64,000 nt of DNA from Actinomycetota bacterium (GTDB taxonomy: Bacteria > Actinomycetota > Actinomycetes > Propionibacteriales > Propionibacteriaceae), in the NCBI GenBank assembly GCA_020161755.1, contig JAIUOS010000023.1, forward strand, positions 1-64,000, written 5' to 3'. Below the pieces are notes generated by a model that was not told the DNA's origin, searched no databases, and saw only the letters and a list, made by a program, of their open reading frames with translations. Shown in pieces: positions 364 to 34,544 of the stretch. The stretch's first letter is position 1. Each line of letters opens with the position of its first letter. A program made the translations under genes and the position numbers.

Positions 364-3685
<3,322 letters not shown>

Positions 3686-3686
<1 letters not shown>

Positions 3687-5580: not shown

Positions 5581-5662
5581 TTTCCCCGGAATTCCTGCGA
5601 AGCTCCTAGTTGGGCGTTAGATTGACGACATCAGCCAGCTATTTCGTCTGCCGGAGAATCTT

Positions 5663-6521: not shown

Positions 6522-6585
6522 ACAGCCGTCCGGCTGCAGGGCAATGTTCTCCCAGACCGGGTTCTCCCAGACCAGAAGGCACATC

Positions 6586-6924: not shown

Positions 6925-6933
6925 GCCGGCGCC

Positions 6934-8166
6934 ATGAGCCGGATCGTGCTCGGTGTCGCCGGCGGGATCGCCGCGTACAAGGCGTGCCTGCTGCTGCGCC
7001 GTTTCGCCGAGGCCGGCCACGAGGTGACCGTGGTGCCCACCCGCAACGCGCTGGAGTTCGTGGGCGCGACCACCTGGGCGGCACTGTCGGGCAAGCCGGT
7101 TGCCGCCGACGTGTTCACCGGCGCCGAGCAGGTGCCCCACGTCCGGCTGGGCCGCGAGGCCGACCTGGTGGTGGTAGCCCCGGCGACCGCCGATCTGCTC
7201 TCCAGGGCTGCGACCGGACGAGCGGACGATCTGCTCACCAACGTGCTGCTGACCGCCGGTTGCCCGGTGCTGATGGCGCCGGCGATGCACACCGAGATGT
7301 GGCTGCACCCGGCCACCCGAGCCAATGTGGCGACGCTGCGCTCGCGCGGCGTGGTGGTGCTGGAGCCGGCCGAGGGCCGGCTGACCGGCGCCGATTCCGG
7401 CCCGGGGCGGCTGCCCGAACCCGAGGACATCGAAGCGCTCGCGCTCGCGCTGCTGGACGCCCCCGGGCTGGCCGAGCGGATGGCCGCCCAGGATCTGGCC
7501 GGGCAGAAGGTCGTGATCTCGGCCGGCGGCACCCGGGAGGCGCTCGATCCGGTGCGGTTCGTCGGCAACTCCTCCTCGGGCCGCATGGGCGTCGCTCTCG
7601 CCCGGGGCGCCGCGGCGCGGGGCGCCGAGGTGACGCTGGTCGCGGCCAACCTGGCCCTGCCGCTGCCGTCGGCAGTGAGCGGCGTGCCGGTGGGATCCAC
7701 CGCCGACCTGGCAGAGGCGATGTTCGTCCACGCCGCCGATGCCGATCTCGTGGTGATGGCCGCCGCGCCGGCCGACTACACACCGGCCGCGCCGAGCCCC
7801 ACCAAGTTGAAGAAGGACGGCGACGCCGGCCTGACGGTGGAGTTCACGCAGACCACCGATATCCTGGCCACGCTCTCCGGACGCCGTCCCCCGGGGCAGG
7901 TGATCGTCGGCTTCGCCGCGGAGACCGCCGGTTCCCGCAACGAACTCCTCGCGCTGGGCCAGGCGAAGCTCGCCCGCAAGGGCTGCCAGCTGCTCGTGCT
8001 CAACGACGTCTCCGGTGGCCGGGTCTTCGGTTCCGACGCCACCGAGGTGATCGTGATCTCCCCGTCCGGCGTCGTCGCGGAGGCGACCGGCAGCAAGGCC
8101 GCTGCCGCGCACGCCGTCCTCGATGCTGCACTCGCTCTCAGAACCGCCGAAAGGAAGCCAGCGTGA
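6934..8166 (+). CDS. coaBC: Bifunctional phosphopantothenoylcysteine decarboxylase / phosphopantothenate-cysteine ligase
   Basis: Two successive steps of coenzyme A synthesis on one 410-residue polypeptide. The N-terminal flavoprotein domain (CoaC, to about residue 180) opens with [13 protein letters not shown] and has the PAMHTEMW motif that includes the family PAMN-like site, here with His in place of Asn. The C-terminal CoaB domain starts near [17 protein letters not shown] and has the KLKKDG nucleotide-binding motif. It begins 9 bp after rpoZ and its stop overlaps the metK GTG, so it belongs to the same transcript. Confidence 0.95.
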
Positions 8167-9350
8167 GCCGCCTCTTCACCTCCGAATCGGTCACCGAGGG
8201 GCACCCCGACAAGGTCGCCGACTCGGTCTCCGACCACGTGCTGGATGCCCTGCTGCGCGAAGACCACCGCAGCCGGGTCGCCGTGGAGACCCTGGTCACC
8301 ACCGGGACGGTCGTGGTCGCCGGCGAAGTGACGACCTCGGGCTACGTCGACATCGCCAAGCTCGCCCGCGACCGCATTCTGGAGATCGGCTACGACTCCT
8401 CGGAGAAGAGCTTCGACGGCGGCTCGTGCGGCGTCCTGGTGTCCCTGGGCACCCAGTCGCCGGACATCGCGCTCGGCGTGGACACCGCGCTGGAGGCCCG
8501 CGCCGAGGGCTCCCGCGATCTGCTGGATGCGCAGGGGGCCGGCGACCAGGGGCTGATGTTCGGGTACGCCTGCAGCGACACCGCCAGCCACATGCCGTTG
8601 CCCATCGACGTTGCCCACCGGCTGGCCGAGCGGCTGGCGGAGGTGCGTCAGCGGGCCGACCTCGACTTCCTGCTGCCGGACGGCAAGACGCAGGTGACCG
8701 TCGAGTACGACGGCGACCGTCCGGTGCGGATCGACACGGTGGTGGTCTCCACCCAGCACATCGAGGCGGTCAGCCAGGCCACCATCGCCGCCGAGGTGAA
8801 GGCCCGGGTGATCGAGCCCGTGCTGGCCCGCTATCCGATCCCGCACGACGGCCTGACCGTGTACGTGAACCCGACCGGGAAGTTCGTCGTCGGCGGCCCG
8901 ATGGGCGATGCCGGCGTGACCGGGCGCAAGATCATCGTCGACAGCTACGGCGGCATGGCCCGCCACGGCGGCGGCGCGTTCTCGGGCAAGGATCCGTCAA
9001 AGGTGGATCGCTCGGCCGCGTACGCGCTGCGCTGGGTCGCCAAGAACGTGGTGGCGGCCGGGCTGGCCGAGCGCTGCGAGGTGCAGGCCGCCTACGCCAT
9101 CGGACGTGCCCACCCGGTCGGCTTCTACACCGACTGCTTCGGTACGGAGAAGGTGCCGCTGTCGCAGATCGAGGATGCCGTGCGCCAGGTCTTCGACCTG
9201 CGGCCGGCCGCGATCATCCGCGATCTCGACCTGCTGCGCCCGATCTACTCCCGGGTGACCAACTACGGCCACTTCGGTCGCGAGCTCGACGTGATGACCT
9301 GGGAGCGCACCGACCGCGCGGACGCGCTCGCTGCAGCCGTCAAGGGCTGA
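8163..9350 (+). CDS. metK: S-adenosylmethionine synthase
   Basis: Makes SAM from methionine and ATP. The 395-residue protein has the hallmark motifs [15 protein letters not shown] at the N-terminus, [12 protein letters not shown], and the phosphate loop [19 protein letters not shown]. An open frame extends upstream to 6822, but that part is only a shadow of rpoZ/coaBC. GTG 8163 overlaps the coaBC stop and is directly followed by the conserved N-terminal motif, fixing the start. No SAM-riboswitch-like structure is possible upstream because the gene is preceded directly by coding sequence. Confidence 0.98.
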
Positions 9351-9410
9351 CGCGCACCGCTCCCGCGTTCGCCCGGGTCGACGTCGGAGCCGGGCTCTAC
9401 CATTCACGTC

Positions 9411-11312
9411 ATGGAGCAGGTGCGGGTGGCGAGCGTGGCGGTGGACATGCCGCTGGCCAACCTCGACCGTCCGTTCGACTACCTGGTGCCGGACGAGCTG
9501 GCCGAGGCCGCGGTGGTCGGTTCGCGGGTGCGGGTGCGTTTCGCCGGACGGCTGCGCAACGGGTTCGTCCTCGAACTGCGAACGGACTCCGCTCGCGACA
9601 AGCTGCTGCCGCTGCAGGGGGTGCTCTCGCCGGAACCGGTGCTGAGCGCCGAGGTGACGCGACTGGTGCGGGCGGTCGCCGACCACTACGCCAGCAGCTT
9701 CGCCGATGTGGTGCGGCTGGCGGTGCCGCCTCGGCACGCGCTGACCGAGCGGGCCGAGCCCCCGGCCTACCCGGCGCCGCGACTGGAGCCGGCACCTCCC
9801 GTGCTCGGCCGCTACCCCGACGGCGAGGTCTACCTGGCGAAGCTCGCCGAGGGCGGCCGGCCGCGTGCCACCTGGACGACCGCACCGCGACCTGACGGGG
9901 TGGGGGACTGGGCCGGCGGGCTGCTGGACGCCGCCGCCACCACCCTGGGTTCGGGCAGGGGAGCGGTGCTGCTGGTACCCGACGCACGCGACCTGGCCGA
10001 ACTGGCCGAGCGGGCCAAGGAACGTCTCGGTGCCGGCAGCTTCGTCACCCTCACTGCCGAACTGGGGCCGGCGGCGCGCTACCGGGCCTTTCTGGCCGCT
10101 GCTCGCGGGCAGGTGCGGCTGGTGCTGGGCAATCGCGCGGCGGTCTTCGCCCCGGTGCACGACCTGGGCCTGATCGCGCTGTGGGACGACGGGGACGACT
10201 CCTACGCCGAGCCGCGGACTCCCTATCCGCACGCGCGGGAGGTGGCCGTGCTGCGCGCCCATCTGGCCGGCTGCGGGCTGTTGCTGGCCGCGCGCTCCCG
10301 CACCGCGGAGGTGCAGCGACTGGTGGCCACCGGCTGGCTGCACCCGCTTCAGCTCAGCCCCGCCGACACCCGGGCCGTCTCCGCAGCGGTCCGCGTCACG
10401 GCCAGCGACGAGACCCGGCTGCCCCGGGAGGTTTTCGCCACGATCCGCACCGGGCTGACCCACGGCCCGGTTCTGGTCAGCGTGCCGCGTGCGGGCTACC
10501 ACCCGGTGGTGGTGTGCGCCGGCTGTCGCGAGGTGGCGCGCTGCGCGAAGTGCGGTCAACCGCTGCGTCACACCAGGGCGGGGCTCGCGTGCGCCTGGTG
10601 CGGTCCGCCGCAGGCGGGCTGGCGCTGCCCGGAGTGCGGTGACCGGCGGGTTCGCACCCCGGTCGCCGGCGTCACCCGCACCGCCGAGGAGTTCGGCAAG
10701 GCGTTTCCCGGCGTACGGGTGCTGTCCTCGTCCGGCGATCACCCGGTCGGCGAGGTGGACGAACAATCCACGCTCGTGCTGGCCACCCCCGGGGTGGAGC
10801 CCCCCGCGCGCTTCGGGTACGCGGCGGCCGTCCTGCTCGATACCGCGGCGACCCTGGGACGGCCCGAACTGCGGGCCGGCGAGGAGGCACTGCGACGCTG
10901 GCTCGCGGTGACCGCGCTGGTGCGCCCGGGGGAGGAGGGCGGCACCGTCCTGGTGGTGGGGGAGGCCGCGGATCGGCAGGTGCAGGCGCTGCTGCGGCTC
11001 GATCCGGTCGGTTTCGCCGAACGTGAGCTGGCCGACCGGGCGGCCGCAGGGTTCCCCCCTGCGGTCAAGCTGGTGGCGCTGGAGGGTGAGTTCGCCGTGC
11101 TGCACGACGTGCTGGGCGCGCTGCAACTGCCCCAGGGCGTGCAGGTGAACGGTCCCTTCGAGACCGCCGGCGAGCCGCGGGTCACGCTGCGCTGCGCGCT
11201 GCCGCTGGCTTCCGAACTGATCGCGGCGGTGCGCACGATGCTCTCCCAGCGCGCCGCGGCGAAGACCGCTGGTGCGCTACGCGTCCGGGTCGACCCGCAG
11301 GTCGTAGGCTGA
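9411..11312 (+). CDS. priA: PriA-like primosomal protein without helicase motifs
   Basis: A 633-residue homologue of the replication-restart protein PriA. The N-terminal DNA-binding domain (VDMPLANLDRPFDYLVP) and the two zinc-binding clusters (CAGCREVARCAKC, then CAWC and CPEC, about residues 366-405) are present. The Walker A GxxGxGKT loop is absent: that position reads DAAATTLGSGRGAVLLVP. The DEEH box is replaced by WDDGDD. This loss is usual for actinobacterial PriA, so a structural role in fork binding is likelier than unwinding. It starts 60 bp after metK and 5 bp before fmt. Confidence 0.92.
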   Translation: MEQVRVASVAVDMPLANLDRPFDYLVPDELAEAAVVGSRVRVRFAGRLRNGFVLELRTDSARDKLLPLQGVLSPEPVLSAEVTRLVRAVADHYASSFADVVRLAVPPRHALTERAEPPAYPAPRLEPAPPVLGRYPDGEVYLAKLAEGGRPRATWTTAPRPDGVGDWAGGLLDAAATTLGSGRGAVLLVPDARDLAELAERAKERLGAGSFVTLTAELGPAARYRAFLAAARGQVRLVLGNRAAVFAPVHDLGLIALWDDGDDSYAEPRTPYPHAREVAVLRAHLAGCGLLLAARSRTAEVQRLVATGWLHPLQLSPADTRAVSAAVRVTASDETRLPREVFATIRTGLTHGPVLVSVPRAGYHPVVVCAGCREVARCAKCGQPLRHTRAGLACAWCGPPQAGWRCPECGDRRVRTPVAGVTRTAEEFGKAFPGVRVLSSSGDHPVGEVDEQSTLVLATPGVEPPARFGYAAAVLLDTAATLGRPELRAGEEALRRWLAVTALVRPGEEGGTVLVVGEAADRQVQALLRLDPVGFAERELADRAAAGFPPAVKLVALEGEFAVLHDVLGALQLPQGVQVNGPFETAGEPRVTLRCALPLASELIAAVRTMLSQRAAAKTAGALRVRVDPQVVG

Positions 11313-11317
11313 CGCCC

Positions 11318-12241
11318 ATGCGTCTCGTCTTCGCAGGCACCCCGACCGTCGCCGCGCACACCCTGGCGCACCTGCTCGATCGCACCGATCACGAGGTCGT
11401 CGCTGTGATCAGCCGGCCGGACGCACCGGTGGGACGGTCGAAGCGTCCGGTGCCCAGCCCGGTCTCCGAGCTCGCTCTGAGCCGCGGCATCGAGCTCCTG
11501 CGGCCGACGCGTCCCAGCGAGGCCGTGGCGCGACTCGGCGAGCTCGCGCCGGACGCCTGCCCGGTGATCGCCTATGGCGCGCTCCTGCCGCAGCGCGTAC
11601 TGGACGTCCCGGCCCACGGCTGGCTGAACGTCCACTACTCGCTGCTGCCACGCTGGCGCGGGGCGGCCCCGGTGCAGCGCGCGATCCTGGCCGGTGACGA
11701 GGTGACCGGCGTCAGCGTCTTCCGGCTGGTGGCGGCGATGGACGCCGGTCCGGTCTTCGCGACCTCCGCGGTGGCGATGGAACCGGGGGAGACCTCCGGC
11801 GAACTGCTGGAACGGCTCACGCCGCTCGGCGCCGCGCTGCTGGCCGAGACCCTCGGCCAGGTGGCGGAGGGAAGCGCGGTGGCCGTCGAACAGCCGGCGG
11901 ACGGCATCACCATCGCCCCCAAACTGACGGTGGCGGAGGCACGCCTGGAGTGGGCTGCGCCGGCGGCGGAGCTGGCGCGACTGGTGCGGGCGTGCAACCC
12001 GTCCCCGATGGCCTGGGCCGGCCACGGCGGCGAGCGCTTCCGGGTGCTACGCGCCGAGCCGGCGGCCGAAGCGGTGCCTGGCCTGGCGCCGGGTGAGCTG
12101 GCGGTCGGCCGCAGGGAGGTGCTGGTGGGCACCGGCGACGGCGCCCTGCGGCTGCTGGAGGTGCAGCCCCAGGGCCGGCGCGGCATGCCAGCCACGGCCT
12201 GGGCCAACGGCCTGCGCGGCGATCCCGGGGTGCTGGAGTGA
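11318..12241 (+). CDS. fmt: Methionyl-tRNA formyltransferase
   Basis: Formylates initiator Met-tRNA using 10-formyltetrahydrofolate. The 307-residue protein opens with MRLVFAGTP and has the conserved VHYSLLPRWRGAAPVQRAIL catalytic-domain segment containing the His and the SLLP motif. The C-terminal OB-fold-like domain begins at about residue 205. The stop overlaps the rsmB GTG. priA-fmt-rsmB is a common actinobacterial order. Confidence 0.96.
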   Translation: MRLVFAGTPTVAAHTLAHLLDRTDHEVVAVISRPDAPVGRSKRPVPSPVSELALSRGIELLRPTRPSEAVARLGELAPDACPVIAYGALLPQRVLDVPAHGWLNVHYSLLPRWRGAAPVQRAILAGDEVTGVSVFRLVAAMDAGPVFATSAVAMEPGETSGELLERLTPLGAALLAETLGQVAEGSAVAVEQPADGITIAPKLTVAEARLEWAAPAAELARLVRACNPSPMAWAGHGGERFRVLRAEPAAEAVPGLAPGELAVGRREVLVGTGDGALRLLEVQPQGRRGMPATAWANGLRGDPGVLE

Positions 12242-13578
12242 GCCGTTCCGCCGGACGTCGCGCCGATCCCGCACGGCGCGCGGCCTACCGGGTTCTGCGC
12301 CGGGTGAGCGACGAAGACGCCTACGCCAATCTCGCGCTCGCCCACGAGGCGGCCGGCCTCTCACCGCGGGACGCGGCCTTCGCCACCGAACTCACCTTCG
12401 GCACCTGCCGGGCGCTGGGCACCTACGACGCGATCCTGCAGGCGGTCTCGAAGCGTCCGCTGGCCGAGCTCGACCCACCCGTACTCGACCTGCTCCGTCT
12501 GGGCAGCCACCAGCTACTGGCCATGCGCGTGCCGCAGCACGCCGCCGTGGATTCCACCGTCGCCCTGGCGAAGGCCGAGGTGGGCCCGCGGATCACCGGC
12601 TTCGTCAACGCCGTGCTGCGCAAGGTCGCCGGCGACAGCCTGGCCGGCTGGGTGGACTGGCTCACCGCCGACGCCGATCCGCGCGACGCGCTCGCGCTCG
12701 CCACCCAGCACCCGCGCTGGATCGTGGACGCCTGGGCCGATGCGCTCGGCCAGCCGGGGGAGGCCGAACTGCGCGCCGCGCTGGAGGCCGACAACAGGGC
12801 GCCGGTCAATCATCTGGTGGTGCGTCCGGGCCTGGCCGCCGTCTCCGAATTGGGCGGCGAACCCGCTCGCTACTCGCCGTTCGGGGCTTACGCCTCCGGT
12901 GCGCCGGGTGGCGTCCCAGCGGTCGCCGAGGGCCGCGCCGGGGTTCAGGACGAGGGCTCGCAACTGGTCGCGCTCGCCCTCAGCCGCGTGGCTGCGCCCA
13001 GCGGCCCCTGGCTGGATCTCTGCGCCGGCCCCGGCGGGAAGGCCGCGCTGCTGGCTGGGCTGGCGATCGAGGCCGGAACCAGGCTGGTGGCCGGCGAACT
13101 CCAGCCGCACCGCGCCCGCCTGGTCGCGCAGAACCTGGCGGGCTACGCGACGGACGCGAATGCCCCGGTCGCCCTCGTCGCCGACGGCACCCGCCCTGGG
13201 TGGGCACCAGGGAGCTTCGCCAAGGTGATGGCCGACGTCCCGTGCAGTGGGCTGGGCGCCCTGCGACGACGTCCGGAAGCCCGCTGGCGCCGGCAGCCCT
13301 CCGACATCGACGACCTGGCCGGGCTGCAGATCGCCCTGCTGCACTCGGCCCTGGCGGCGGCCGCTCCGGGCGGGGTGGTGGCCTACGTCACCTGCTCGCC
13401 CCACCTGGACGAGACCCGCGGGGTGCTGGCCACCGCCGGTGAGGCGGAGATCCTGCCGGCCGCCGACTACCTTCCCGAGGTGCCCGACGCGGCGGTGGGA
13501 GATTTCGTGCAGTTGTGGCCGCACCGCCACGGCACCGACGCGATGTTCCTGGCCCTGTTGCGGGTCGGCGGCGGCTGA
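12238..13578 (+). CDS. rsmB: 16S rRNA (cytosine-C5)-methyltransferase RsmB/NOL1/NOP2/Sun family
   Basis: A 446-residue SAM-dependent rRNA methyltransferase. Residues 1-140 form the NusB-like RNA-binding domain. The catalytic domain has the SAM motif LDLCAGPGGKAALLAGL and two active cysteines, one in DVPCSGLGALRRRPEARW and one in TCSPHLDET. The GTG start at 12238 overlaps the fmt stop. It ends 9 bp from the convergent ROK gene, closing the forward housekeeping block. Confidence 0.94.
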   Translation: MSRSAGRRADPARRAAYRVLRRVSDEDAYANLALAHEAAGLSPRDAAFATELTFGTCRALGTYDAILQAVSKRPLAELDPPVLDLLRLGSHQLLAMRVPQHAAVDSTVALAKAEVGPRITGFVNAVLRKVAGDSLAGWVDWLTADADPRDALALATQHPRWIVDAWADALGQPGEAELRAALEADNRAPVNHLVVRPGLAAVSELGGEPARYSPFGAYASGAPGGVPAVAEGRAGVQDEGSQLVALALSRVAAPSGPWLDLCAGPGGKAALLAGLAIEAGTRLVAGELQPHRARLVAQNLAGYATDANAPVALVADGTRPGWAPGSFAKVMADVPCSGLGALRRRPEARWRRQPSDIDDLAGLQIALLHSALAAAAPGGVVAYVTCSPHLDETRGVLATAGEAEILPAADYLPEVPDAAVGDFVQLWPHRHGTDAMFLALLRVGGG

Positions 13579-13587
13579 CCTACTCCC

Positions 13588-14802
13588 TCAGGAGGCGGCC
13601 GGCCCGGTTGCCCGCAGTACCCGGTCGAGCCGCTCCGGAGCCAGCAGCGCGTCCGAGACGAGGAAGGCCGCACCGATCACCCCGGCCGATTCGTCCAGCC
13701 TGCTGAGCGAGATGTTGAGGTCCTTGGTGGCCAAGGGGAGAGACCGGCTGTAGACCAGTTCGCGCACGCCGGCCATCAGCTGGTCGCCGGCGCGGGCCAG
13801 CTCGCCCCCGATGACGATCACCGCCGGGTTGAGCAGGCTGGTCGCGAAGGCGACGGCCTCGCCGAGGATGCGCCCGGCGTCGCGGATCAGGGCCATGGCC
13901 TCGGGCGCGCCTCGCCGGACCGTGGAGACGACGTCGCGCGCGGTCATCACACCGTCGTATTCGCCGCTCTGCAGGAGGCGGAGTTCCCTGGCCATGGCCC
14001 AGCCTCCGGCCAGTGCCTCGAGGCACCCCCGGTTCCCGCACCGGCAGACCGGATCGCCGTAGCCGGCGATCCGGGCGTGCCCGATGTCTCCGGCGGCACC
14101 GAGCGAGCCGCGGTTGATCCGGCCGTCGACGACGAAGCCACTGCCGATGCCCGTTCCGGCCTTGATGAACATCAGGTGGGACTCCTCCGGCCACACCAGG
14201 CGGTGCTCGGCGAGGGTGAGCAGGTTTACATCGTTGTCGACGAAGACCGGGACGTCGAACTCCGCCGCGAGATGCTCGCGGACCTCGTACCCTTCCCAGC
14301 CCGACATGATCGACCAGCCCACCGTGCGTCCGGTGGCGAAGTCGACCGGGGCGGGCAGGCCCACCCCGATGCCGCCCAGCCGGTCGCCCTTCACGGCACG
14401 GGACGCCAGGAGTTGCCGGCCCGCCTCGATGATCGTGGCGAGGACGGCCTGCGGGCCGTCGCTGACGCGCTGGTCGAGAACGGTCTCTTCGATGATGGTG
14501 TTGCGCAGGTCGGCGATCGCGACCCGGGTGTGCACCTCGCCGATGTCGACGCACAACGAGACATAGGCGCGCGGCTGGAACTCGTAGACGGTGGCGGGGC
14601 GGCCTCCCGAGGCGACGCGACGATTGGTCTTGTGGATGAGCCCGGCGGCCGACAGCGTGCGAAGGCGCTCGGTGACGGTCGGGCGGGACAGCCCGGTGAG
14701 CGATTCGATGGCCGAGCGAGTGCAGTCCGCGTTGTCCATCACCACGGCCAGTACGGCGCCAGGACCAGGGCCGGCGGTAGGTGGCTGGCGCGTCGTCGTC
14801 AC
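13588..14802 (-). CDS. ROK-family transcriptional regulator
   Basis: A 404-residue repressor-type ROK protein. The N-terminal winged helix (SAIESLTGLSRPTVTERLRTL) is followed by the actin-like sugar-kinase fold with DIGEVHTRVAIADL and the zinc-binding CRCGNRGCLEAL cluster. The start is uncertain: GTG 14802 is chosen because it opens directly before the HTH domain, while ATG 14829 would add nine residues; neither has a clear Shine-Dalgarno. It diverges from a sugar ABC transporter, and a perfect palindrome lies between them, so it probably represses that operon until a sugar binds. The sugar itself cannot be read from the sequence. Confidence 0.88.
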   Translation of the reverse strand: MTTTRQPPTAGPGPGAVLAVVMDNADCTRSAIESLTGLSRPTVTERLRTLSAAGLIHKTNRRVASGGRPATVYEFQPRAYVSLCVDIGEVHTRVAIADLRNTIIEETVLDQRVSDGPQAVLATIIEAGRQLLASRAVKGDRLGGIGVGLPAPVDFATGRTVGWSIMSGWEGYEVREHLAAEFDVPVFVDNDVNLLTLAEHRLVWPEESHLMFIKAGTGIGSGFVVDGRINRGSLGAAGDIGHARIAGYGDPVCRCGNRGCLEALAGGWAMARELRLLQSGEYDGVMTARDVVSTVRRGAPEAMALIRDAGRILGEAVAFATSLLNPAVIVIGGELARAGDQLMAGVRELVYSRSLPLATKDLNISLSRLDESAGVIGAAFLVSDALLAPERLDRVLRATGPAAS

Positions 14803-14830
14803 GGCACCAGTGTAGCTTTGGTAAATCATT

Positions 14831-14846
14831 GTTACTAAAGAGTAAC
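14831..14846. promoter_or_regulatory. Operator-like palindrome between ROK regulator and sugar transporter
   Basis: GTTACTAAAGAGTAAC is a perfect inverted repeat with 6-bp arms and a 4-bp AAAG centre. It lies 28 bp upstream of the ROK start and 9 bp upstream of the -35 hexamer of the forward promoter. ROK regulators commonly bind such palindromes in divergent intergenic regions. Binding of this protein here is inferred. Confidence 0.65.
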
Positions 14847-14855
14847 GTTATTTGT

Positions 14856-14884
14856 TTGACAGCATTGCGTAAGGCTGCCAATCT
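14856..14884 (+). promoter_or_regulatory. Promoter for sugar-binding protein gene
   Basis: A perfect -35 TTGACA (14856-14861) is followed after 17 bp by CAATCT (14879-14884), which keeps the key A2 and T6 of a -10 element. The start codon of the substrate-binding protein is 86 bp further on, leaving a 5' leader with GGAG near 14959-14963. Confidence 0.6.
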
Positions 14885-14970
14885 GATGCCAGAATCGCAG
14901 CTGCGCCGTCGGGCCAGGTGTGATGGGCCTTCCGGACGGAGGAGCCCCACAACGTCGTTAGGAGAACGCA

Positions 14971-16035
14971 ATGAAGCTTCGCCAGACCAGGGCAATGCAT
15001 CGTTGGAGCGCCTTCGTGGGTTCCGCGGTGGTTGTCAGCAGCTTGGCTCTCGTCGGGTGTTCTACTGGTACGCCCGCCCCCTCCGGTACGCCAACCTCCG
15101 GTACCCAGACCGCCACCCAGCCCCCGGCGGCCGAGACCTACACGATCGGCATCGTCGAGCAGCAGCTCGCCAATCCGTTCTTCGCCAAGCTCCAGCAGGC
15201 CGCCGTCGACGCGGCCAAGGCCGCCGGGCTGGAGGTGACGACGGCCGAATCCAAGACGGCCGGCGACTCCGCCACCCAGGTGGATGCGATCGAAAACATG
15301 ATCGCGCGGGGAGTCAAGGGGATCGTGCTCGACCCGGCCAACGCCACCGCGCTGGTCGACGTCGTGCAGCGGGCTCGTGACGCCGGGATCCTGGTCGTCA
15401 CGGTCAACACCTCCCTGGAGCCGGTGGACGCCGCCGACGCCTCCTTCGAGACCGACAACCTCGCCGGCGGACGCCTGATGGGCCAGTGGGCGAAGGCCGC
15501 GCTGGGCGATCAGGAGCCACGGGTCGCCATGCTGGACTACGACCTCTCCGACAAGACCGCCGCGGCCCGTCACAACGGCTTCCTGGAAGGATTCGGGCTG
15601 ACCGAGGACTCCCCGGAGATCGTCGGAACGGCGCTGACGAAGTCGAACGTCGAGACCGGCCAGACCGCGATGGAGAACCTCCTCTCGGCGCACCCCGACA
15701 TCAACGCCCTCTACACCATCAACGAGCCGGCTGCCCAGGGCGCGTTCATCGCGATCAGCAACGCCGGCAAGCAGGAGCAGATCGCGATCACCTCGATCGA
15801 CGGCAGCTGCTCCGGCGTCCAGAGCGTCGTCGACGGCGAGATCGGCGCGACGGTCATGCAGTTCCCGAGCCGGATGGGCGAACTGGCCGTCCAGGCGATC
15901 GTCGACTACGTCGAGAGTGGCACCAAGCCCTCGGGTGTGATCGACTCTGGTACTGCCCTGATCACCGACCGGCCGGTCGAGGGCATCGAGTCGCACGACA
16001 CCGCCTGGGGCCTGCAGAACTGCTGGGGCGAGTGA
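14971..16035 (+). CDS. Sugar ABC transporter substrate-binding lipoprotein
   Basis: A 354-residue periplasmic-binding-protein-like lipoprotein. The signal peptide ends in a lipobox LVGC with the lipidated Cys at about residue 30, followed by a Thr/Pro/Ser linker. The mature part is the type 1 ribose/fructose-binding fold (TIGIVEQQLANPFFAKLQQA, then ASFETDNLAGGRLMGQWA). It resembles fructose (FrcB-like) or ribose binding proteins, but the ligand is not certain. The ROK regulator is divergent and a permease gene follows after 64 bp; that permease is truncated, so the system is incomplete as seen here. Confidence 0.9.
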   Translation: MKLRQTRAMHRWSAFVGSAVVVSSLALVGCSTGTPAPSGTPTSGTQTATQPPAAETYTIGIVEQQLANPFFAKLQQAAVDAAKAAGLEVTTAESKTAGDSATQVDAIENMIARGVKGIVLDPANATALVDVVQRARDAGILVVTVNTSLEPVDAADASFETDNLAGGRLMGQWAKAALGDQEPRVAMLDYDLSDKTAAARHNGFLEGFGLTEDSPEIVGTALTKSNVETGQTAMENLLSAHPDINALYTINEPAAQGAFIAISNAGKQEQIAITSIDGSCSGVQSVVDGEIGATVMQFPSRMGELAVQAIVDYVESGTKPSGVIDSGTALITDRPVEGIESHDTAWGLQNCWGE

Positions 16036-16043
16036 CCGACCTT

Positions 16044-16077
16044 TCCTGGGGTCAGGCCGTGTCCTGGCCCCAGGAAG
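16044..16077 (+). other. RNA hairpin between binding protein and permease
   Basis: TTCCTGGGGTCAGG and CCTGGCCCCAGGAA form a 14-bp stem with one G-U pair and a 6-base loop. There is no T-tract, so it is not a standard terminator. Hairpins here in ABC operons often protect the binding-protein mRNA, giving more binding protein than permease; that role is inferred. Confidence 0.6.
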
Positions 16078-16099
16078 TCCTGAACGAAAGGGGGAGGCG

Positions 16100-16273
16100 G
16101 TGACGGATCCCAAGGGGAGCGTTGACCGGCTACGGGGCTTCCTCACCACGCAGGTGGCGGGGCCGCTCGCGGCGCTACTGGTGGCGATCGTCGTGTTCTC
16201 CGCCACGACGGACACCTTCCTCAACCCGGCGAACTTCTCGCTGATGCTGCAGCAGTCGGTGGTGATCGGCACG
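16100..16273 (+). pseudogene. Sugar ABC transporter permease, N-terminal fragment
   Basis: Only the first 58 codons of a FrcC/RbsC-type permease are present: a cytoplasmic start, one membrane helix (VAGPLAALLVAIVVFSATT), then FLNPANFSLMLQQSVVIGT. In intact relatives this continues with a run such as LALGQTLVIL and about 270 more residues. Here the frame crosses into the antisense of a DUF1501 gene at 16273 and stops at 16321. GTG 16100 has GGGGGAGG upstream. The loss coincides with a 19-bp sequence shared by both genes, so this may be a real breakpoint or an assembly join. Confidence 0.85.
16255..16273. other. Junction: 19-bp sequence common to two truncated genes
   Basis: These 19 bases encode SVVIGT of the permease on the + strand and VPITTD of the DUF1501 protein on the - strand. 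Left of 16255 only the permease is coherent; right of 16273 only DUF1501 is coherent. The two halves therefore meet exactly at a short identity. That is what either microhomology-mediated rearrangement or a short-overlap assembly error would leave. Confidence 0.8.
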
Positions 16274-17589
16274 TCGCCCTCGTCGAGGTTGGACGCCTTG
16301 AGCTCGGGCATCTCGCCGTAGACCTTGCCGCCCTTGATGCCGCCGCCCATGAACATCGCGATGTTGCCGTGCCCGTGGTCGCTGCCGCCGTCGCCGTTCA
16401 CCTCGGCGCGGCGACCGAACTCACTCATGGTCACCACCGTGACGCTGTTCCAGCGGGTCCCCAGGTCCTTGCGGAACGCGGCGATCCCGGTGGCGAAGTC
16501 CTTGGCCTGCCGGGTGAACCAGCCGTCCGCGTCCGTCGGGGCGCCGATGTTCTGGTGCATGTCCCAGTTGCCGTAGTCGATGCACGCCACCTCGAGGCCG
16601 AGGTCGGCCTTGTGTAGCCGGGCGATGTCCTGCAGGCCCTTGTGCCACTCGGAGTCCTTGTCGTACTTCGCACCACCCTCGGGGGCGTAGGTCTTCTCGC
16701 GGAGCGTGCCCAGGCTGGTGACGGCGTCGATCGTCGCCTTGGCCTGGGTCTCCAGCACGCCGCCCGCGTCCCCGTAGACGATGCCGAGGTCGCGGACGAG
16801 GTTTGCGCTGTCGTTCCAGCCCGACTCGAGCTTGAAGGAGTCGACGCTGGACATGGCGAGCGCCTGGTAGCCGGTGGTGGTCAGCGACAGCACCACCCGC
16901 TGGTTGCCCATGGTGATCGCGCGGAACGTCCCGGAGGAGGCCGAGGACGAGACGATGTGGCGTCCGATCCACCCCGACCGCTGGTTGGCGGACGCGGCGC
17001 GTTCGCACATGTCCTGGTCCTCGAAGTGCGACCGGGTGACGGCGGGGTGCCCCGAGCCGAGCACGACCGCCATCTGGTTGTCCTTCCAGATGTCGCCGAG
17101 CGCGGAGAACCCGGGGTGCAGGACGTAGTCCGACGACAGCTTCAGGCCGCTGGTGACCCGGACGTTGCCGCGCAGGTCGTGGTAGTAGTTGTCGTTCACT
17201 GCGCCGAGCGCGGCCAGGCCGTCGAAACCACCGCGCAGGAACACGCAGACGAGCAGGTCGCGTCCGCTCCCGGCGGCGAACGAGTAGCGCGGCACCGCGG
17301 AGGCGGCCAGGAGGCCACCGATCCCGATCAGCGAGCCCTTGAACAGGCCGCGCCGTGCGAACCGGGGTCCCGTCGGGACGTGTTCGACGCCGGGGTCGTC
17401 GACCCGGGTGTTCGGACGCAGCGTGGTCACCAGCCGGTTGGCCTCGTCCGGGCTGACCACGCGCGAACGACCGCCGACGGTCGCGATCAGCTTGTTGTGG
17501 GCCTCGTCGTGGTGGTGCAGGGGAGTGATGAGGTCCTCGTGCAGCAGGGCCTCACCGCGGAGCAGGGAGGCGTCCAGGTTCTTGGTCAT
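16255..17589 (-). pseudogene. DUF1501 family exported protein, C-terminally truncated
   Basis: About 445 native codons of a DUF1501 protein. Near residue 75 there is a twin-arginine type signal (RFARRGLFKGSLIGIGGLLAASA), then VCVFLRGGFDGLAALG, HPAVTRSHFEDQDMCE and MSEFGRR motifs of the family, which is related to sulfatases/alkaline phosphatases in fold. The native sequence ends at DEGDVPITTD; homologues continue for roughly 35-45 residues. After 16255 the frame runs antisense through the sugar transporter genes to 14848, which is not real protein. It starts 15 bp after the DUF1800 gene with AGAGGT upstream, forming a two-gene operon of unknown function. Confidence 0.88.
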
Positions 17590-17604
17590 GGCGTGAACGA
17601 CCTC

Positions 17605-19248
17605 TCAGCGGAGCTTGAAGTAGGGGGAGCAGAAGACGAAGTCGAGCGCGATGCCGAGGTTGTACTTCAGTTGGTTCGCACTCAGCGTCTCGACGGTGGC
17701 GTCGCCCTTCAGGCGTGCCACCACGATGTCGAGGTGTTCCTGCTTCCACGTGTAGCCGGTGAGGTCGCGGGTGATCTTCTTCGCCGCGTCCGTGGCCAGC
17801 ATCCCGGTCTTCAGGCCGAGCGCCGACCGCCACGACCCCGACTTCGACGGCCAGTCCTCGTCGTTGCCCCAGTTCGTGCGGGCATTGGCGGTGTACCAGG
17901 AGCTCAACAGCGCGGCCGTCCCCATCCAGGCACCGGCCTTGTCGGGGTAGCCGTTGACCACGGGCCACATCCGGGGTTGGTGGTCCTCCAGGTAGAGCAG
18001 CCACTGGGCGGTCCCGGTGATGTTCCACAGGTTCTTGGTCTGGGTGTCGTTCTTCCCGGTCTTGATCTTGTACGGCTTGCGGGCCTTGATCATCGTCGCC
18101 AGCGTCTCCTGCGGACGGCGCCACTTGGAGCCGACCTCCTCGGCGAACTCGTCGCTGAGCAGCAGCGCCCGCAGCACCGCCTTCAGCGAGGTGCCGTTCG
18201 CCTCGTACACGTCCGCGAGCTTCGAGATGAGCGCGGTGGACGGGGTGTCGGAGACGTACCGGGTGGCGAGCCGGCGCGCGATGTGCTCGGCGGTGCCGCG
18301 GTGGGCGGCGAGGTCCCTGAGGTAGGCCTTCAGGGTCGCCGGCCCGTCGCCCTCGGCGTTGGCGTAGGTCTTGCCCATGATCGTGAGCTCACCGAAGTGG
18401 TGCTGGTCGGCATGGAAGGCGTAGGTGCGCTTCTGCCAGTTGTAGCCGTGGCCGGTGAGGAGCAGCGCGGAGGCGCGGACGTCGTCCTCGGTGTAGCGGG
18501 GGTTGCCGTCCGCGTCCTCGACCCCGACCGTGTGGAGCTCGAGGAGTTCGCGTCCGAGGTTCTCGTTGGGGTTGTCCGCGGAGTTGTACTGGTTGTCCAG
18601 GTAGACCAGCAGCCCGGGGTGCCGTACCGCGGCGTACAGCATGTCGGAGAACTTGCCGAGCGCGTACTTGCGGATCACCGACCAGTCGAACCAGGCCGCG
18701 AGGTCGGACGCCTTGCCGTCGGCGCACACGTAGAGGTGGTCGGCCATCGTGTCGACCATCGACTCGTACAGGTAGCGCTTCGTGAACACCTGGCGGATCG
18801 TGCGCGAGGTGCTCAGCGCCTTGCCGCCGCGCCACGCCTCGTTCTTGCTCGCCTTGACCAGTTGGGACGCGGTCATCGTGGTGAAGCTGAGGTGCTTCTT
18901 GATCAGCTTGTCCGCGGTCTTGTCGCTGATCTTCGTCCAGTTCAGCTGCTTGTCGATCCAGGCCGTGGTGCCGAGCTCGGCGATCTGGGCGACGATCGCC
19001 TTCGTCGGCGCCGGGCAGACCCGGCGGGCGAGGTGCCACTCCTTGGTCGAGGTGAGGTCGAGGCTCTTGGCGAGGTCGCCGATGACCGCGGGGAGCACCG
19101 GCGACATCGGGTACACCGGAGCGGCCTGTGCCGGGGTCGCCCGTCCGAACGCGGTGAGGGCGAGTCCACCTCCCGCAGCGAGCCCGAGGGCGGCCCGTCG
19201 TGAAGGTCCGGAAGCCGCCGGGGGCGGAACTGTGGGCAGTGCAGTCAT
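17605..19248 (-). CDS. DUF1800 family exported protein
   Basis: A 547-residue protein with a twin-arginine signal (SRRAALGLAAGGGLALTAFG, cleavage probably after AQA) and the DUF1800 body, including NENLGRELLELHTVGV and the ELTIMGKTYANAEGDGPATL region. DUF1800 and DUF1501 genes are regularly adjacent; both are exported and their biochemical role is unknown. ATG 19248 is preferred over 19275 because AGGTGG lies 6 bases upstream. A good promoter is 49 bp upstream. The protein looks complete. Confidence 0.9.
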   Translation of the reverse strand: MTALPTVPPPAASGPSRRAALGLAAGGGLALTAFGRATPAQAAPVYPMSPVLPAVIGDLAKSLDLTSTKEWHLARRVCPAPTKAIVAQIAELGTTAWIDKQLNWTKISDKTADKLIKKHLSFTTMTASQLVKASKNEAWRGGKALSTSRTIRQVFTKRYLYESMVDTMADHLYVCADGKASDLAAWFDWSVIRKYALGKFSDMLYAAVRHPGLLVYLDNQYNSADNPNENLGRELLELHTVGVEDADGNPRYTEDDVRASALLLTGHGYNWQKRTYAFHADQHHFGELTIMGKTYANAEGDGPATLKAYLRDLAAHRGTAEHIARRLATRYVSDTPSTALISKLADVYEANGTSLKAVLRALLLSDEFAEEVGSKWRRPQETLATMIKARKPYKIKTGKNDTQTKNLWNITGTAQWLLYLEDHQPRMWPVVNGYPDKAGAWMGTAALLSSWYTANARTNWGNDEDWPSKSGSWRSALGLKTGMLATDAAKKITRDLTGYTWKQEHLDIVVARLKGDATVETLSANQLKYNLGIALDFVFCSPYFKLR

Positions 19249-19296
19249 CGGACCACCTGATGTCAGAGGGGGCATGGGGGAGCCTGAACGGCGCTA

Positions 19297-19325
19297 ACCA
19301 TAACGGATCCTGAGAGTTTTGTTAA
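19297..19325 (-). promoter_or_regulatory. Promoter of the DUF1800-DUF1501 operon
   Basis: On the - strand, TTAACA (19325-19320) and TATGGT (19302-19297) are separated by exactly 17 bp, a near-consensus housekeeping promoter in otherwise GC-rich sequence. The DUF1800 ATG is at 19248. Confidence 0.65.
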
Positions 19326-19419
19326 GACTATCTGAGACTGGGTTGTGCAAGTCCCCTTTCGGGTGACAGCCAACGGGGCCGAGCTGGCCGACCTAGCATG
19401 GGTGCGTCGGAGGAGGGCC

Positions 19420-19911
19420 ATGATCCAGGTCGAGATCGCCAGTGTCGCGGTCGATTCGCGGGGCCAGCCGGTGATCGTGCTCGCTCCCGTCGGCGCCGAA
19501 CCGGGTGCGCGGCGGCTGCTGCCGATCTGGGTCGGCGTGCCGGAGGCGGCCGCGATCATGATGGCGATCTCGGGCGAGGCCCCGGCCCGGCCCCAGGTCT
19601 ACGACCTGATGGCGACGCTGGTCGCCCGCCTCGGCGCGGCGGTCGAGAAGGTGGTCGTCACCCGGCTCGAGAACAGCACCTTCTTCGCCGAGCTCAGCCT
19701 CGAGACACCGATGGGGAGCCAGGTCATCGACGCCCGGCCCTCGGACTCGATCGCCCTGGCCGTGCGCGCGGGTGCGCCGGTGTTCGTGGCCGAAGCGGTG
19801 TTCGCCGAGGCCGGCATGCCGGACGCCGAGGCCGCCGGGGACGAGCAGGCCGAGATGGCGGCGTTCCAGGAGTTCCTCGCCGACGTCGAACCGGATGATT
19901 TCACGGGCTGA
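19420..19911 (+). CDS. Bifunctional nuclease family (DUF151) protein
   Basis: A 163-residue protein of the BFN/DUF151 family: IQVEIASVAVDSRGQPVIVLAP, LPIWVGVPEAAAIMMAI, and VIDARPSDSIALAVR are characteristic. Plant members have DNase/RNase activity, while bacterial members, widespread in actinobacteria near MerR genes, remain poorly characterised. ATG 19420 has GGAGGA at 19409-19414; an upstream open frame to 19345 lacks homologous sequence. The acidic C-terminal tail follows the domain. Confidence 0.9.
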   Translation: MIQVEIASVAVDSRGQPVIVLAPVGAEPGARRLLPIWVGVPEAAAIMMAISGEAPARPQVYDLMATLVARLGAAVEKVVVTRLENSTFFAELSLETPMGSQVIDARPSDSIALAVRAGAPVFVAEAVFAEAGMPDAEAAGDEQAEMAAFQEFLADVEPDDFTG

Positions 19912-20173
19912 GGAGATTGGTCACCCGGAAGGGGTCTGACCATTTCGAGGCGCGTCGCCTATGGTCGAGGAAGGCCTCTCTCGGCGGATCCGCCAACCTC
20001 CGGGAGCACGAAGGGCACGGCGACCTGATCTGGAGGGGGCAGGTTGGCGTGGTTCGTGTCTGTCGTGGTGGCGCCACGAATTGGGTAGGGCCGTGAGCGC
20101 CCCCGGCAGGGCCGTGGCATCGATGGTGACGGCGTCGCCGTCGAGGCCGGCCCAAGGGCCCGGCGGACCATGC
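19912..20173. other. 262-bp gap without a recognisable gene
   Basis: Between the DUF151 gene and the convergent histidine kinase. Short open frames exist on both strands but none has a ribosome site or recognisable protein. One inverted repeat is visible near GGCGGATCCGCC (19983-19994). I see no tRNA, and I could not confirm a transposase remnant. Confidence 0.5.
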
Positions 20174-23100
20174 TCAGGCCTCCTCGGGCTCCACCCCGGT
20201 TTCGATCACACGACGGGCGACCTCACGCAGCTTCAGGTTTCGGTTCTGGCTGGCCGCACGTAGCCGCTGGAACGCCTGCGCCGGCATCAACCGGTGGCGT
20301 TCGACGAGGATGCCGATCGCCTGTCCGACGAGCCGATGGCTCTCCATCGCGGCCTGGAGGTTGGCCTCGCGGTCGGCGGCGCGCTGCGCGGAGATCACCC
20401 GGTCGACGGCCAGCGCCAGGGACTGCGCGAGCAGGTCGGCGACGATCATCTCGTCCGGGCCGATCGCCCGCGGACGGAGGAACTGCACCCACGCGCGGAC
20501 TCCGGAGGCGCTGCTCCGCGGCACCAGCAGGATGCCCGGACGCCGGCCGCGGGCCTCGCTGCCGGGGTCACCGGCGAGGCCCGCGCGCACCTGCTCGGGA
20601 AGGCTCTCGGCCGTGACCGTGACGCCGCCGCTCAGCAGCAGCTGGTGGGTCTCGTCGAGGTTCAGCTGCACGGTGCTCCCGCCGTCGAACAGCACCCCCA
20701 GGCCGTGCTCGGCGACCGCGAGCAGCGTGTCGAGCTCGTCAATCGAGCTGAAGTCGGCGCTGACCTGCGCTGCCGCCACCCGGCGCTCGCGGGCGACGTG
20801 CTCGCGGGAGATGTCGCGCAGCGTCCGCACGGTGGCGGTGAGGCCACTCTCGCGGTGCCGCACCTGCGCGCCGGTCGACTCGACCCACACCGGCTGGCGG
20901 TCGCGCCGGTAGAACTCGAACTCGCCGGTACGGTCCTCGCCGCCCCGGGCCTCCTCGTAGGCCGCGGTGATCACCGCGAGCGCCTCGGCGTCCTCCTCCT
21001 CGGTGGGCCACCACGGGTAGGGCGGGCGGAACGGCCCGTCCGCCATGGTGTAGCCGAGCAGGTCGCTGAACGCCTGGTTCATCTCCAGCACCAGGCCCTC
21101 GGCGTCGAAGATCACCAGCCCGTCGTGGATGGCGGTCATCACCGCGCGCCGCCAGGCCGTGTCGAGGGAGCGTTCGCGGGCGCGCTCGAGGTTGGCCGCG
21201 ATGCGCGCCTTCAGGTCGACCAGCGTGAAGGGCTTGGCGATGTAGTCGTCCGCGCCCTCGCCGAGTCCCGCGGCCGCCGCGTCGTCGCTGCCGCGGGCCG
21301 ACAGCAGCAGCACCGGCAGGCCGCGCAGCGAGGGATCGTCGCGGATCAGCCGCACCAGTTCGAGCCCGTCGACGCCGGGCATGGCGAGGTCGCTCAGCAC
21401 CACGTCGGGCCGGTCGCGCCGGATCGCCTCCAGCGCGGACGCCCCGTCGGCGGCGGTCTCGACCACGTAGGAGTCACTGAGGCTGTCGGCGAGGAACCGC
21501 GCCAGCTGTGCGTCGTCCTCGACCGCCAGCAGCCGTGGGCGGTCGGTGCGGGCGGACGCCGGCGCAGACGCCGTCCACTCCGCGAACTCGGCCAGGAAGG
21601 ACGGCGCACGCCGCGGCGTGATCGAGTCGCCGGTGCCCGCCGGCTCCGGCGGCTCGAACGGCAGCCGGACGGTGAAGGTGCTGCCCTCGCCGAGCGCCGA
21701 ACGCAGCGCGACGGTGCCACCGAGGAGTTCGGTGAGCTGTCGCACCATCGCCAACCCGATGCCGGCCCCGACCGGCGCGCGGGTACCGGACGGGGGGCCG
21801 AGCCGCTCGAAGCGGGCGAAAACCCGGTCGTGGTCGTCGGGATCGATCCCGGACCCGGTGTCGGTGACGGTGATCGCGTAGCCGGTGTCGTCGGAATCGA
21901 GGCTCAGCGTGACCGAGCCGGACGGGGTGAACTTCACGGCGTTGGAGAGCAGGTTGAGCACGATCCGTTCCAGCACGTCGTGGTCGACGAGGGCCGGCCG
22001 GGCCAGGTCGGGCACGTCCACGACGAACTCCAGCCCGGCGCGTTCGAGCGTCGGGGCGAAGGTGGCGGCCAGGCCGCGGACGAGCGTCGTGACGTCGCAG
22101 CGGCGCAGGCGGGGCACCAGCCGTCCCGCCTCCATGCGGTTGAAGTCGAGCATGGCCTCGACGAGCCGGGACAGGCGGGCGACGTTCGCCTGCACGAGGG
22201 CCAGGTCGGCGCGGGTGTGGTCGTCGAGGTCGCGCGCGAGGATGTCCTCGACGGGGGCGGAGATCAGGGTGAGCGGGGTGCGCAGTTCATGGCTCATCCC
22301 GGTGAAGAACTGCGACTTCGCGGCATCCAGGGCGGTGGCGCGCGCGACCCGGTCGCGTTCGGTCCACAGCTCGGTGCGGGTCAGGAGCGCGGCGGCCAGC
22401 GAGATCGCGAGCAGCGTCAGGTAGCTGTCGAGTTCGGCGTCCCACGGCCGCGCGGCGTGGTGCCGGATCACCAGCACGTGGGTGGGGGTGTGGGTCTCGG
22501 GTTCGAGGACGGGGTAGGCGTGCAGGCGTGCGGCCGCCGTGTCCTCGCCGTTGTCGTGGTGCGGGGCCGAGTCGGCCAGGCACGCCCGTGCAAGCGCGCC
22601 GGCGCGGTCGTGGTCGATGGGCTCGCCGAAGCTCGCCAGCGCGGCCCCCACGTCGTCGCCGGAGCGCGTGGCCCGGAACAGGGCGCCGGCCGGGTGGTCG
22701 GCCGCGTTGGAGGCCAGCACGGCCATCGCGAGTTCGGCCAGCTCGGTCTGGGTGCTGCTGTCGACGATCTCGCGTCCGAGGCGCTCGAGGCAGCGCAGGC
22801 GCCGGTCGGCCAGGACCTGCCAGGTCGACTCGACGACGACCGACATGACGCCGCTGGTGCGTCCGTCGTCCTCGACGATCGCGGAATGGCTGAAGGTGAA
22901 GTAGCACTCCTCGCCGGGCAGGGCGCGGTCGAGGTGGACGCCGCGGTCGACGGCGAAGAAGGGTTCCCCGGTGGTGACCACCTGCTCGATCAGGGCGCGG
23001 GACTCGGCGTCCGCCTCGGGCCAGACCTCGTCGCTGCGCCGGCCGAGGGCGGCGCTGAACCGTTCGGGACCGAAGACCTCGCGGCAGGCGTCGTTGTAGA

Positions 23101-23335
23101 GGACGATCAGCTCGTCGCCCAGGCGCAGCGTCATCGGGAACAGCGAGCCCAGGCACAGCACGACCGCGCCGCGGGCGGCCGCGGGCCAGCCGGTGATCGG
23201 TCCGAGGCGGGTGCCGGCCCAGTCGAAGGACGCGACCTTGGCGCCCATCTCGCCGCGGGTGGAGATCCACCGCAGCCATTCGGGCGGCGACGACACCGGG
23301 CCGGGCGGGTCCGCGGCGGCGATCTCAGGCGTCAT
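20174..23335 (-). CDS. Hybrid sensor histidine kinase with receiver, PAS and C-terminal ANTAR domain
   Basis: A 1053-residue soluble multidomain sensor. In order: PAS-like sensor (about 35-170), GAF-like segment (about 180-310), HisKA with MSHELRTPL (phospho-His about 349), HATPase (NLLSNAVKF, DTGSGIDP, GAGIGLAMV; about 450-565), receiver with DVVLSDLAMPG (phospho-Asp about 649) and the conserved KPF, PAS (about 735-850), GAF-like region, and an ANTAR domain (about 985-1050, MESHRLVGQAIGILVERHRL). ANTAR domains bind nascent RNA and prevent termination. The output is thus probably antitermination directly, without a separate regulator. It lies downstream of carH on the same strand, 265 bp apart; a functional link is only suggested. 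Confidence 0.88.
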   Translation of the reverse strand: MTPEIAAADPPGPVSSPPEWLRWISTRGEMGAKVASFDWAGTRLGPITGWPAAARGAVVLCLGSLFPMTLRLGDELIVLYNDACREVFGPERFSAALGRRSDEVWPEADAESRALIEQVVTTGEPFFAVDRGVHLDRALPGEECYFTFSHSAIVEDDGRTSGVMSVVVESTWQVLADRRLRCLERLGREIVDSSTQTELAELAMAVLASNAADHPAGALFRATRSGDDVGAALASFGEPIDHDRAGALARACLADSAPHHDNGEDTAAARLHAYPVLEPETHTPTHVLVIRHHAARPWDAELDSYLTLLAISLAAALLTRTELWTERDRVARATALDAAKSQFFTGMSHELRTPLTLISAPVEDILARDLDDHTRADLALVQANVARLSRLVEAMLDFNRMEAGRLVPRLRRCDVTTLVRGLAATFAPTLERAGLEFVVDVPDLARPALVDHDVLERIVLNLLSNAVKFTPSGSVTLSLDSDDTGYAITVTDTGSGIDPDDHDRVFARFERLGPPSGTRAPVGAGIGLAMVRQLTELLGGTVALRSALGEGSTFTVRLPFEPPEPAGTGDSITPRRAPSFLAEFAEWTASAPASARTDRPRLLAVEDDAQLARFLADSLSDSYVVETAADGASALEAIRRDRPDVVLSDLAMPGVDGLELVRLIRDDPSLRGLPVLLLSARGSDDAAAAGLGEGADDYIAKPFTLVDLKARIAANLERARERSLDTAWRRAVMTAIHDGLVIFDAEGLVLEMNQAFSDLLGYTMADGPFRPPYPWWPTEEEDAEALAVITAAYEEARGGEDRTGEFEFYRRDRQPVWVESTGAQVRHRESGLTATVRTLRDISREHVARERRVAAAQVSADFSSIDELDTLLAVAEHGLGVLFDGGSTVQLNLDETHQLLLSGGVTVTAESLPEQVRAGLAGDPGSEARGRRPGILLVPRSSASGVRAWVQFLRPRAIGPDEMIVADLLAQSLALAVDRVISAQRAADREANLQAAMESHRLVGQAIGILVERHRLMPAQAFQRLRAASQNRNLKLREVARRVIETGVEPEEA

Positions 23336-23600
23336 TCGGCTCCATCGGGCAGGGCCGCGGCAGGCGCGGACCTCTCAGAACTGCGCCTCAACCCTAATAC
23401 GGTCGGCAACTCCGGCGACCGCGAACCCCGTCCGACGTGCGGTGGCGGTGTGCCGGCTGTTGGCTCAACCGACACACCTGGTCCGGTGGCGACCCGGGTG
23501 GCCATCGGACCTTGCCCCGTGGGCAATTAGCACTTACCCGAGATGCTCCCCGGCATTCGTGGCCCGGGAGTACGACCGTGCCAGCCTCCGCCCCCGACCG

Positions 23601-24431
23601 TCAGCCGGTGGTGGCGAGCCGCCGGGCCGCGTCCGCGATGGAGTGGCCCAGCGGTCGCCAGGGGGTGGGGGCCAGGCCCTGGTGTCGTCCGCCGACCCAG
23701 AGGGTGAGGTCGGCGATGTCGGCGAGTTCGGCGGCGACCGGGGCGAGCCGGTCGGCGTCCCGGCGCCGGTGGAGCGAGCTGACCGCGTGCCGCGGTCGCA
23801 CGGTGGTCACGGCGTGGCGCCAGGCGTCCGCCGGCACGTGGCCACCCAGGTAGATGGTGGACAGCCCTGCGCGGCGGGCAGCGGTGGCGAACGCGAGCAG
23901 GCCGATCTGGTGATCGACGTCGGGCGGCGCACCGATCAGCACCGGCCGCCCGGCGGTCCCGCGTCCGGCCGCGTCGTAGGCGTGCGCGAGCCGGCGCATC
24001 ACCACGTTGCTGACGAGGTGCTCCCCGGCCACGGAGACCTCACCTCGCGCCCACGCCTGGCCGAGCCGGAACAGCGCCGGCATCAGCCAGTCGTCGACCA
24101 CCGTCTCGAACGAGGCCAGGGCGAACTGCTCGTCGAGGATGCGGGCGACGTTGTCGGCGTCCAGCGCCATGGCGGCCGGCACGAGGTCGTCGGACGCGGG
24201 CGCCGCGGCTGGCAGGGCGCGCCGGGTGGACTCCACGGCCGCGTCCCGGGCCGTCCACCCGGTGTCGACAAGGCCTTTCATGGTGCGGATCGTGTCCAGC
24301 GCGCGCAGGTCGTACGTGCGATAGCCGCCTTCGGTACGGGACGGGTCCACCAGCCCGTAGCGACGCTCCCAGGCCCGGAGCGTGTGCTCGGGGACCCCGG
24401 TCAGCTCGGCTGCCTTCTTGATGGTGACCAT
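23601..24431 (-). CDS. carH: CarH/LitR-type MerR regulator with B12-binding photoreceptor domain
   Basis: A 276-residue repressor. Residues 1-70 are a MerR winged helix (TIKKAAELTGVPEHTLRAWERRYGLV). Residues 85-150 are the helical cap with W127 and E137-H138 in WARGEVSVAGEHLVSN. Residues 160-276 are the cobalamin fold with DVDHQIG, giving the lower-axial His at 174. In known CarH proteins the Trp, Glu and His of this motif cover adenosylcobalamin, and light breaks the Co-C bond and releases DNA. An upstream frame to 24515 is open, but homology starts at ATG 24431. It diverges from the carotenoid operon, its expected target. Confidence 0.92.
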   Translation of the reverse strand: MVTIKKAAELTGVPEHTLRAWERRYGLVDPSRTEGGYRTYDLRALDTIRTMKGLVDTGWTARDAAVESTRRALPAAAPASDDLVPAAMALDADNVARILDEQFALASFETVVDDWLMPALFRLGQAWARGEVSVAGEHLVSNVVMRRLAHAYDAAGRGTAGRPVLIGAPPDVDHQIGLLAFATAARRAGLSTIYLGGHVPADAWRHAVTTVRPRHAVSSLHRRRDADRLAPVAAELADIADLTLWVGGRHQGLAPTPWRPLGHSIADAARRLATTG

Positions 24432-24484
24432 GTCAGGTCGAGGATACGACCCTGGACGGCGCGAGCCCAGCATTGTGCGCACTT

Positions 24485-24519
24485 TTGTCCAATGTTGCGC
24501 CGGTGGCTTGTCCAATGTT
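24485..24519. promoter_or_regulatory. Paired direct repeats, candidate CarH operator
   Basis: TTGTCCAATGTT occurs twice (24485-24496 and 24508-24519), 23 bp apart, in the 140-bp region between carH and the carotenoid operon. CarH tetramers are known to bind repeated half-sites over the promoter. A further TTGTGCGCAC lies just before the first copy (24473-24482). Assignment to CarH is inferred from location. Confidence 0.5.
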
Positions 24520-24571
24520 TGGTGCCGCTGACAGACTCAAATGTCAAAGGTTGGAGATGAGGGGAGGCGAC

Positions 24572-25366: not shown

Positions 25367-25378
25367 GGGGCTCCCGGG

Positions 25379-29829: not shown

Positions 29830-29831
29830 CG

Positions 29832-31669: not shown

Positions 31670-31676
31670 GGCCGGC

Positions 31677-32402: not shown

Positions 32403-32405
32403 TCC

Positions 32406-33050: not shown

Positions 33051-33139
33051 GGCGGTGAGCGTAGCTCGCCGGCCGGGGTGCACAAGCGGGCAGGACTACG
33101 GTCGTTACCGACGGTTGCGCACCGGGTTAGCGTGAGGAC

Positions 33140-34528: not shown

Positions 34529-34544
34529 GCAAGGACGGACGCGC

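Follow-up and report, generated by a model that had tools for sequence, protein, structure and literature searches.

A join between two Propionibacteriaceae species on one draft contig is very probably an assembly chimera

Metagenome assembly with MEGAHIT, metaSPAdes, or IDBA-UD can yield inter-genome chimeric contigs, in which two genomes are combined in one contig, a short exact repeat marks the switch, the bin lacks both continuations, and single-copy genes are duplicated. Such contigs are documented in two reports (PMC7881036, PMC11261854), and a mock-community benchmark gives 22.15 chimeric contigs per genome for MEGAHIT versus 2.63 for SPAdes (PMC11261854). Assemblies are commonly run with 21 as the minimum k; one study, for example, used the option --k-min 21 (PMC10867827). 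The locus described here resembles these contigs in all of the aspects listed, and no difference from them was detected. A second known process, microhomology-mediated illegitimate recombination or gene transfer, is alike in leaving a short identity at the breakpoint; it is weighed below against the evidence from related genomes. We are highly confident that the contig is a cross-species chimera created by assembly and that the gene order across the join is not biological.

The window, i.e., the whole stretch of 64,000 bases that was analyzed, corresponds to bases 1-64000 of contig C23 (75,307 bases in full) of a draft genome, here called G000, which consists of 61 contigs and 4.08 Mb, is 95.94% complete with 3.66% contamination, and was probably assembled from a metagenome. 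Another species of the same genus is represented by G010 (public record JAIUOR01, Actinomycetota bacterium isolate PROP1; locus L075 is its contig C17), and the record of G010 names a MEGAHIT bin and k141 contigs ('megahit-bin.30~k141_171917'). Both species belong to one genus of the family Propionibacteriaceae, which includes records named Propionicimonas; G008 (public record VMSW01000007.1, Propionicimonas sp. S2_20) falls in the same genus set as G000.

Two genes cut within one short block

At the junction (16254-16274), the frames of a sugar ABC permease on the + strand and of a DUF1501 gene on the - strand both change within one short block, so that the meeting of two truncated genes noted in a preliminary description of this DNA is borne out by the ORF translations. 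The first 58 codons of the permease (16100-16274, + strand) end in VVIGT and are followed by 15 unrelated residues and a stop, the whole + strand ORF spanning 16100-16321. The DUF1501 gene (16255-17589, - strand; Pfam PF07394) reads normally up to GDVPITTD, where it is cut with loss of a 34-residue C-terminal tail, and its frame then runs through the antisense strand of the sugar operon to form a spurious 913-aa ORF (14848-17589). The upstream partner of DUF1501, an intact DUF1800 ORF (17605-19275, - strand; Pfam PF08811), belongs, as DUF1501 does, to the window's own species.

Both genes are normally longer, as the same description had assumed. The permease is intact in G010 (323 aa; Pfam PF02653), where it is followed by an ABC ATPase gene and then an SDR gene, and a near-full-length permease was present at all six of the other loci with a similar binding protein (L004-L009). 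A tblastn match to the permease in the window does run past the join to residue 172, with 44% identity overall; this is taken as a chance extension in a search without a low-complexity filter. For DUF1501, each of the 10 public relatives found has a 34-residue tail (YRQ...LGxA) after VP-x-x-x-D. Homologues truly ending at these residues, which the description had named as counter-evidence, were not found among the related genomes, as both the permease and DUF1501 continue. A 40-residue query covering the DUF1501 tail gave no match in G000 at E<=10, in an assembly that is 95.9% complete and may have a gap at this point, whereas the query matched at an E value of 1e-14 or better in five of five other genomes searched. 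A 35-bp string spanning the junction was present in one of 198 family genomes, G000 itself, and the same junction was not found in an independent genome among these 198.

The block contains a word of 21 bp (16254-16274) that is present in the G010 permease and, in identical form, in the intact DUF1501 of several relatives. A shared identity of 19 bp had been proposed for this site; the short block stands, with its length best read as 21 bp rather than 19 bp, and 16274 is the last position identical to G010. The exact complement of 16254-16274 occurs in the intact DUF1501 of four of the 10 relatives (L074, L076, L077, and L078), and the remaining six differ from the 21-mer by one mismatch (two relatives), two mismatches (two relatives), or four mismatches (two relatives). 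A TAY codon lies next to the word in all 10, and for this reason the match to the permease on the DUF1501-tail side is capped at 21 bp. Judging from these sequences, a true overlap of exactly 21 bp is most likely, although it may be shorter, since six of the 10 relatives differ by 1-4 bases.

G000 and G010 each contain a single copy of the 21-mer. When the 59-kb right part of the contig (join excluded) was compared with 50 kb of contig C10 of G010, exact matches reached 19 bp at most; extrapolation from 59 kb versus 50 kb leads us to estimate that shared 21-bp words on the order of hundreds are expected between both genomes. A shared 21-mer is therefore nothing unusual and can be accounted for without special biology. 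Short-read assemblers often start from k = 21, a value that is also on the default k list of MEGAHIT.

A left block from another species and a right part from the window's own

The left part of the contig (1-16274) is DNA of the other species. Window positions 2-16274 align with G010:C10:14564-30836 over 16,273 bp, ungapped, with 99.957% identity and seven mismatches (at 9, 10, 12, 15, 18, 978, and 3263); the last base identical to G010 is 16274, the first mismatch falls at 16275, and the sequences are unrelated beyond. Of these mismatches, five are clustered at the contig tip (9-18), perhaps due to strain variation or end-of-contig error. Long matches of window 16255-36000 to G010, by comparison, reach 69-75% only. 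The sequence comparison, with 99.957% on the left versus 69-75% on the right, confirms that the junction observation is real and places it far beyond chance.

The left block includes priA-like, fmt, and rsmB genes (9411-13578, + strand; Pfam), the ROK-family regulator of the sugar operon (13588-14829, - strand; Pfam PF00480; the same ORF is present in G010), and the sugar ABC transporter substrate-binding protein (14971-16035, + strand; Pfam PF13407) upstream of the cut permease. The substrate-binding protein shows 100% protein identity to that of G010:C10, and the next genome gives 63%.

A native, diverged counterpart of this block resides on another contig of G000, as G000:C2:99942-113674 is collinear with window 1-13571 over 13.6 kb at 76%. 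This region carries second full-length copies of fmt (C2:111421-112329, 61%) and rsmB (C2:112350-113675, 68%), and one full-length copy of each was present in the four other genomes searched (G010, G002, G008, and G001). Synteny between C2 and G010:C10 resumes right after rsmB, at about 34691, with the sugar operon skipped. Given the native diverged copy on C2 together with the near-identity to G010, the left 16.27 kb must be regarded as an additional copy of foreign origin. The possibility that G010 is the faulty assembly was also considered and rejected: G010 has a single full-length fmt and a single full-length rsmB on C10, and on either side of the sugar operon C10 runs collinear with G000:C2.

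Neither the continuation of the permease nor the G010 DNA downstream of the join was found in G000 at high identity, and the only 100% match in the search for the permease continuation was the 138 bp before the join. For the 14 kb upstream of the block in G010:C10, G000 has diverged homologues only, with the longest matches at 73-84%. With the upstream DNA diverged and the downstream DNA not found, G000 holds, of G010:C10 bases 1-33900 tested, the join-attached piece only.

The right part of the contig (16275-64000, and on to 75307) belongs to the window's own species. The DUF1501 protein is 70% identical to its G010 counterpart, and a dispersed palindrome, AAAGGGGACTGTCCCCTTT, which is a species-specific expansion, occurs 125 times in G000, 13 times in G001, twice in G002, and not at all in G010 and six other genomes of the genus. 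Four copies of the palindrome core are present in the right part of the window, and these tie the right part to G000; the absence of the core from the left block says little, as a 34-kb stretch of G000:C2 had a single core copy itself. The halves were not cleanly separated by tetranucleotide usage, which was left out of the evidence: the left block was closest to one portion of the G010 contig (C10a, 0.895), but the right parts also correlated with another (C10b) at 0.90-0.91 and with G000:C2 at only 0.81-0.82.

Several repeats were also observed in the right part. Paired REP-like palindromes lie at 29754-29811 and 49375-49423, with the core GGGGAC[T/A]GTCCCC within AAAGGGGACTGTCCCCTTT, and exact 19-mer copies of the palindrome in G000 are often paired, 30-50 bp apart. 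A short repeated unit with TCCCTGAGGAGCGTTCT-GAGCGCAGCG is present at 35880-36000, with two copies in view and similar copies on contigs C28 and C30 of G000.

Origin of the join and consequences for use of the contig

In the sequence of events that we favor, positions 1-16274 and positions 16275 onward come from two species of one genus that were probably assembled together. The G010-type permease and the DUF1501 gene of the right-hand species would share the 21-bp word by chance and codon use, the right-hand species' own DUF1501 presumably carrying all 21 bases. For an assembler working with k = 21, as was probably the case, the word would form one node in the de Bruijn graph that two paths enter and two paths leave; the assembler would have kept a wrong path, leading from the start of the permease into antisense DUF1501, and the resulting contig would then have been binned with the right-hand species. 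A binner that relies on composition would have difficulty in detecting a donor of the same genus with similar composition. A short-overlap assembly error was one of two options offered in the preliminary description, and it is the one strongly favored here by a left part from a different species, a native diverged copy elsewhere, two continuations that were not found, and a likely overlap of 21 bp. With an assembly error at the junction, the gene order across 16.26 kb is therefore wrong, as had been foreseen for this option. The other branch of that description, in which a real junction destroys both systems, falls away, as G010 has an intact permease operon and the rsmB locus of G000 does not natively include one.

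The alternative that fares best, although we hold it to be quite improbable, is a real and very recent transfer, by which at least 16.3 kb of G010-like DNA would have entered DUF1501 of the living right-hand species via the 21-bp microhomology, cutting both genes and leaving the cell diploid for priA-fmt-rsmB. Such an event would agree with the presence of both halves on one contig and of a short common block at the join, and a very recent date would be consistent with the count of two mismatches across 16.3 kb once the contig tip is set aside. However, an insertion would have left the other half of DUF1501 at the distal end of the inserted DNA, and a search of the assembly did not recover it (95.9% complete, so that a gap is possible); the contig, moreover, ends inside the foreign part. 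A foreign stretch of 13.6 kb with mostly housekeeping genes beside a native copy is what cross-contamination would be expected to produce, the junction is confined to one of 198 family genomes, and the probable overlap has the length of a k that assemblers commonly use. Compared with microhomology-mediated recombination, the locus differs in that it lacks a second breakpoint, that a remainder of DUF1501 was not found, that a native copy is kept, and that the left part is nearly identical to a different species.

Even less can be said for a rearrangement within one genome, an inversion or deletion joining two native operons, to which we assign hardly any probability. That both operons are native is the natural view when the sequence is considered by itself; however, the left block shares 99.957% of its bases with another species, its native counterpart on C2 is undisturbed and lacks the sugar operon, and a rearrangement would not yield two diverged copies. 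This reading was rejected, as the left block is DNA of another species with a native counterpart on C2. That both proteins naturally end at the junction, for which no supporting evidence was found, has next to no probability and was rejected in light of the longer homologues, with DUF1501 running 34 residues further in 10 of 10 public relatives and the permease reaching 323 aa in G010 and near full length at each of the six other loci.

With a cross-species assembly chimera as the preferred explanation, the join carries no new biology. Approximately 16.3 kb of the draft genome G000 belongs to another species, and window 1-16274 is not to be used as part of it. The duplicate housekeeping genes of the foreign block would count as contamination, and metabolism, gene order, or horizontal transfer read from contig C23 would mislead. 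The case also illustrates that sequence alone is enough to recognize a switch from one gene into the antisense of another at a word about k letters long. The foreign block adds an operon for sugar uptake, which is absent from the native rsmB locus. In G010:C10, the corresponding insert (L026 14151-19261), which separates rsmB from the conserved gene that follows and which G000:C2 is without, comprises the ROK regulator, the sugar-binding protein, the permease, the ATPase, and an SDR dehydrogenase.
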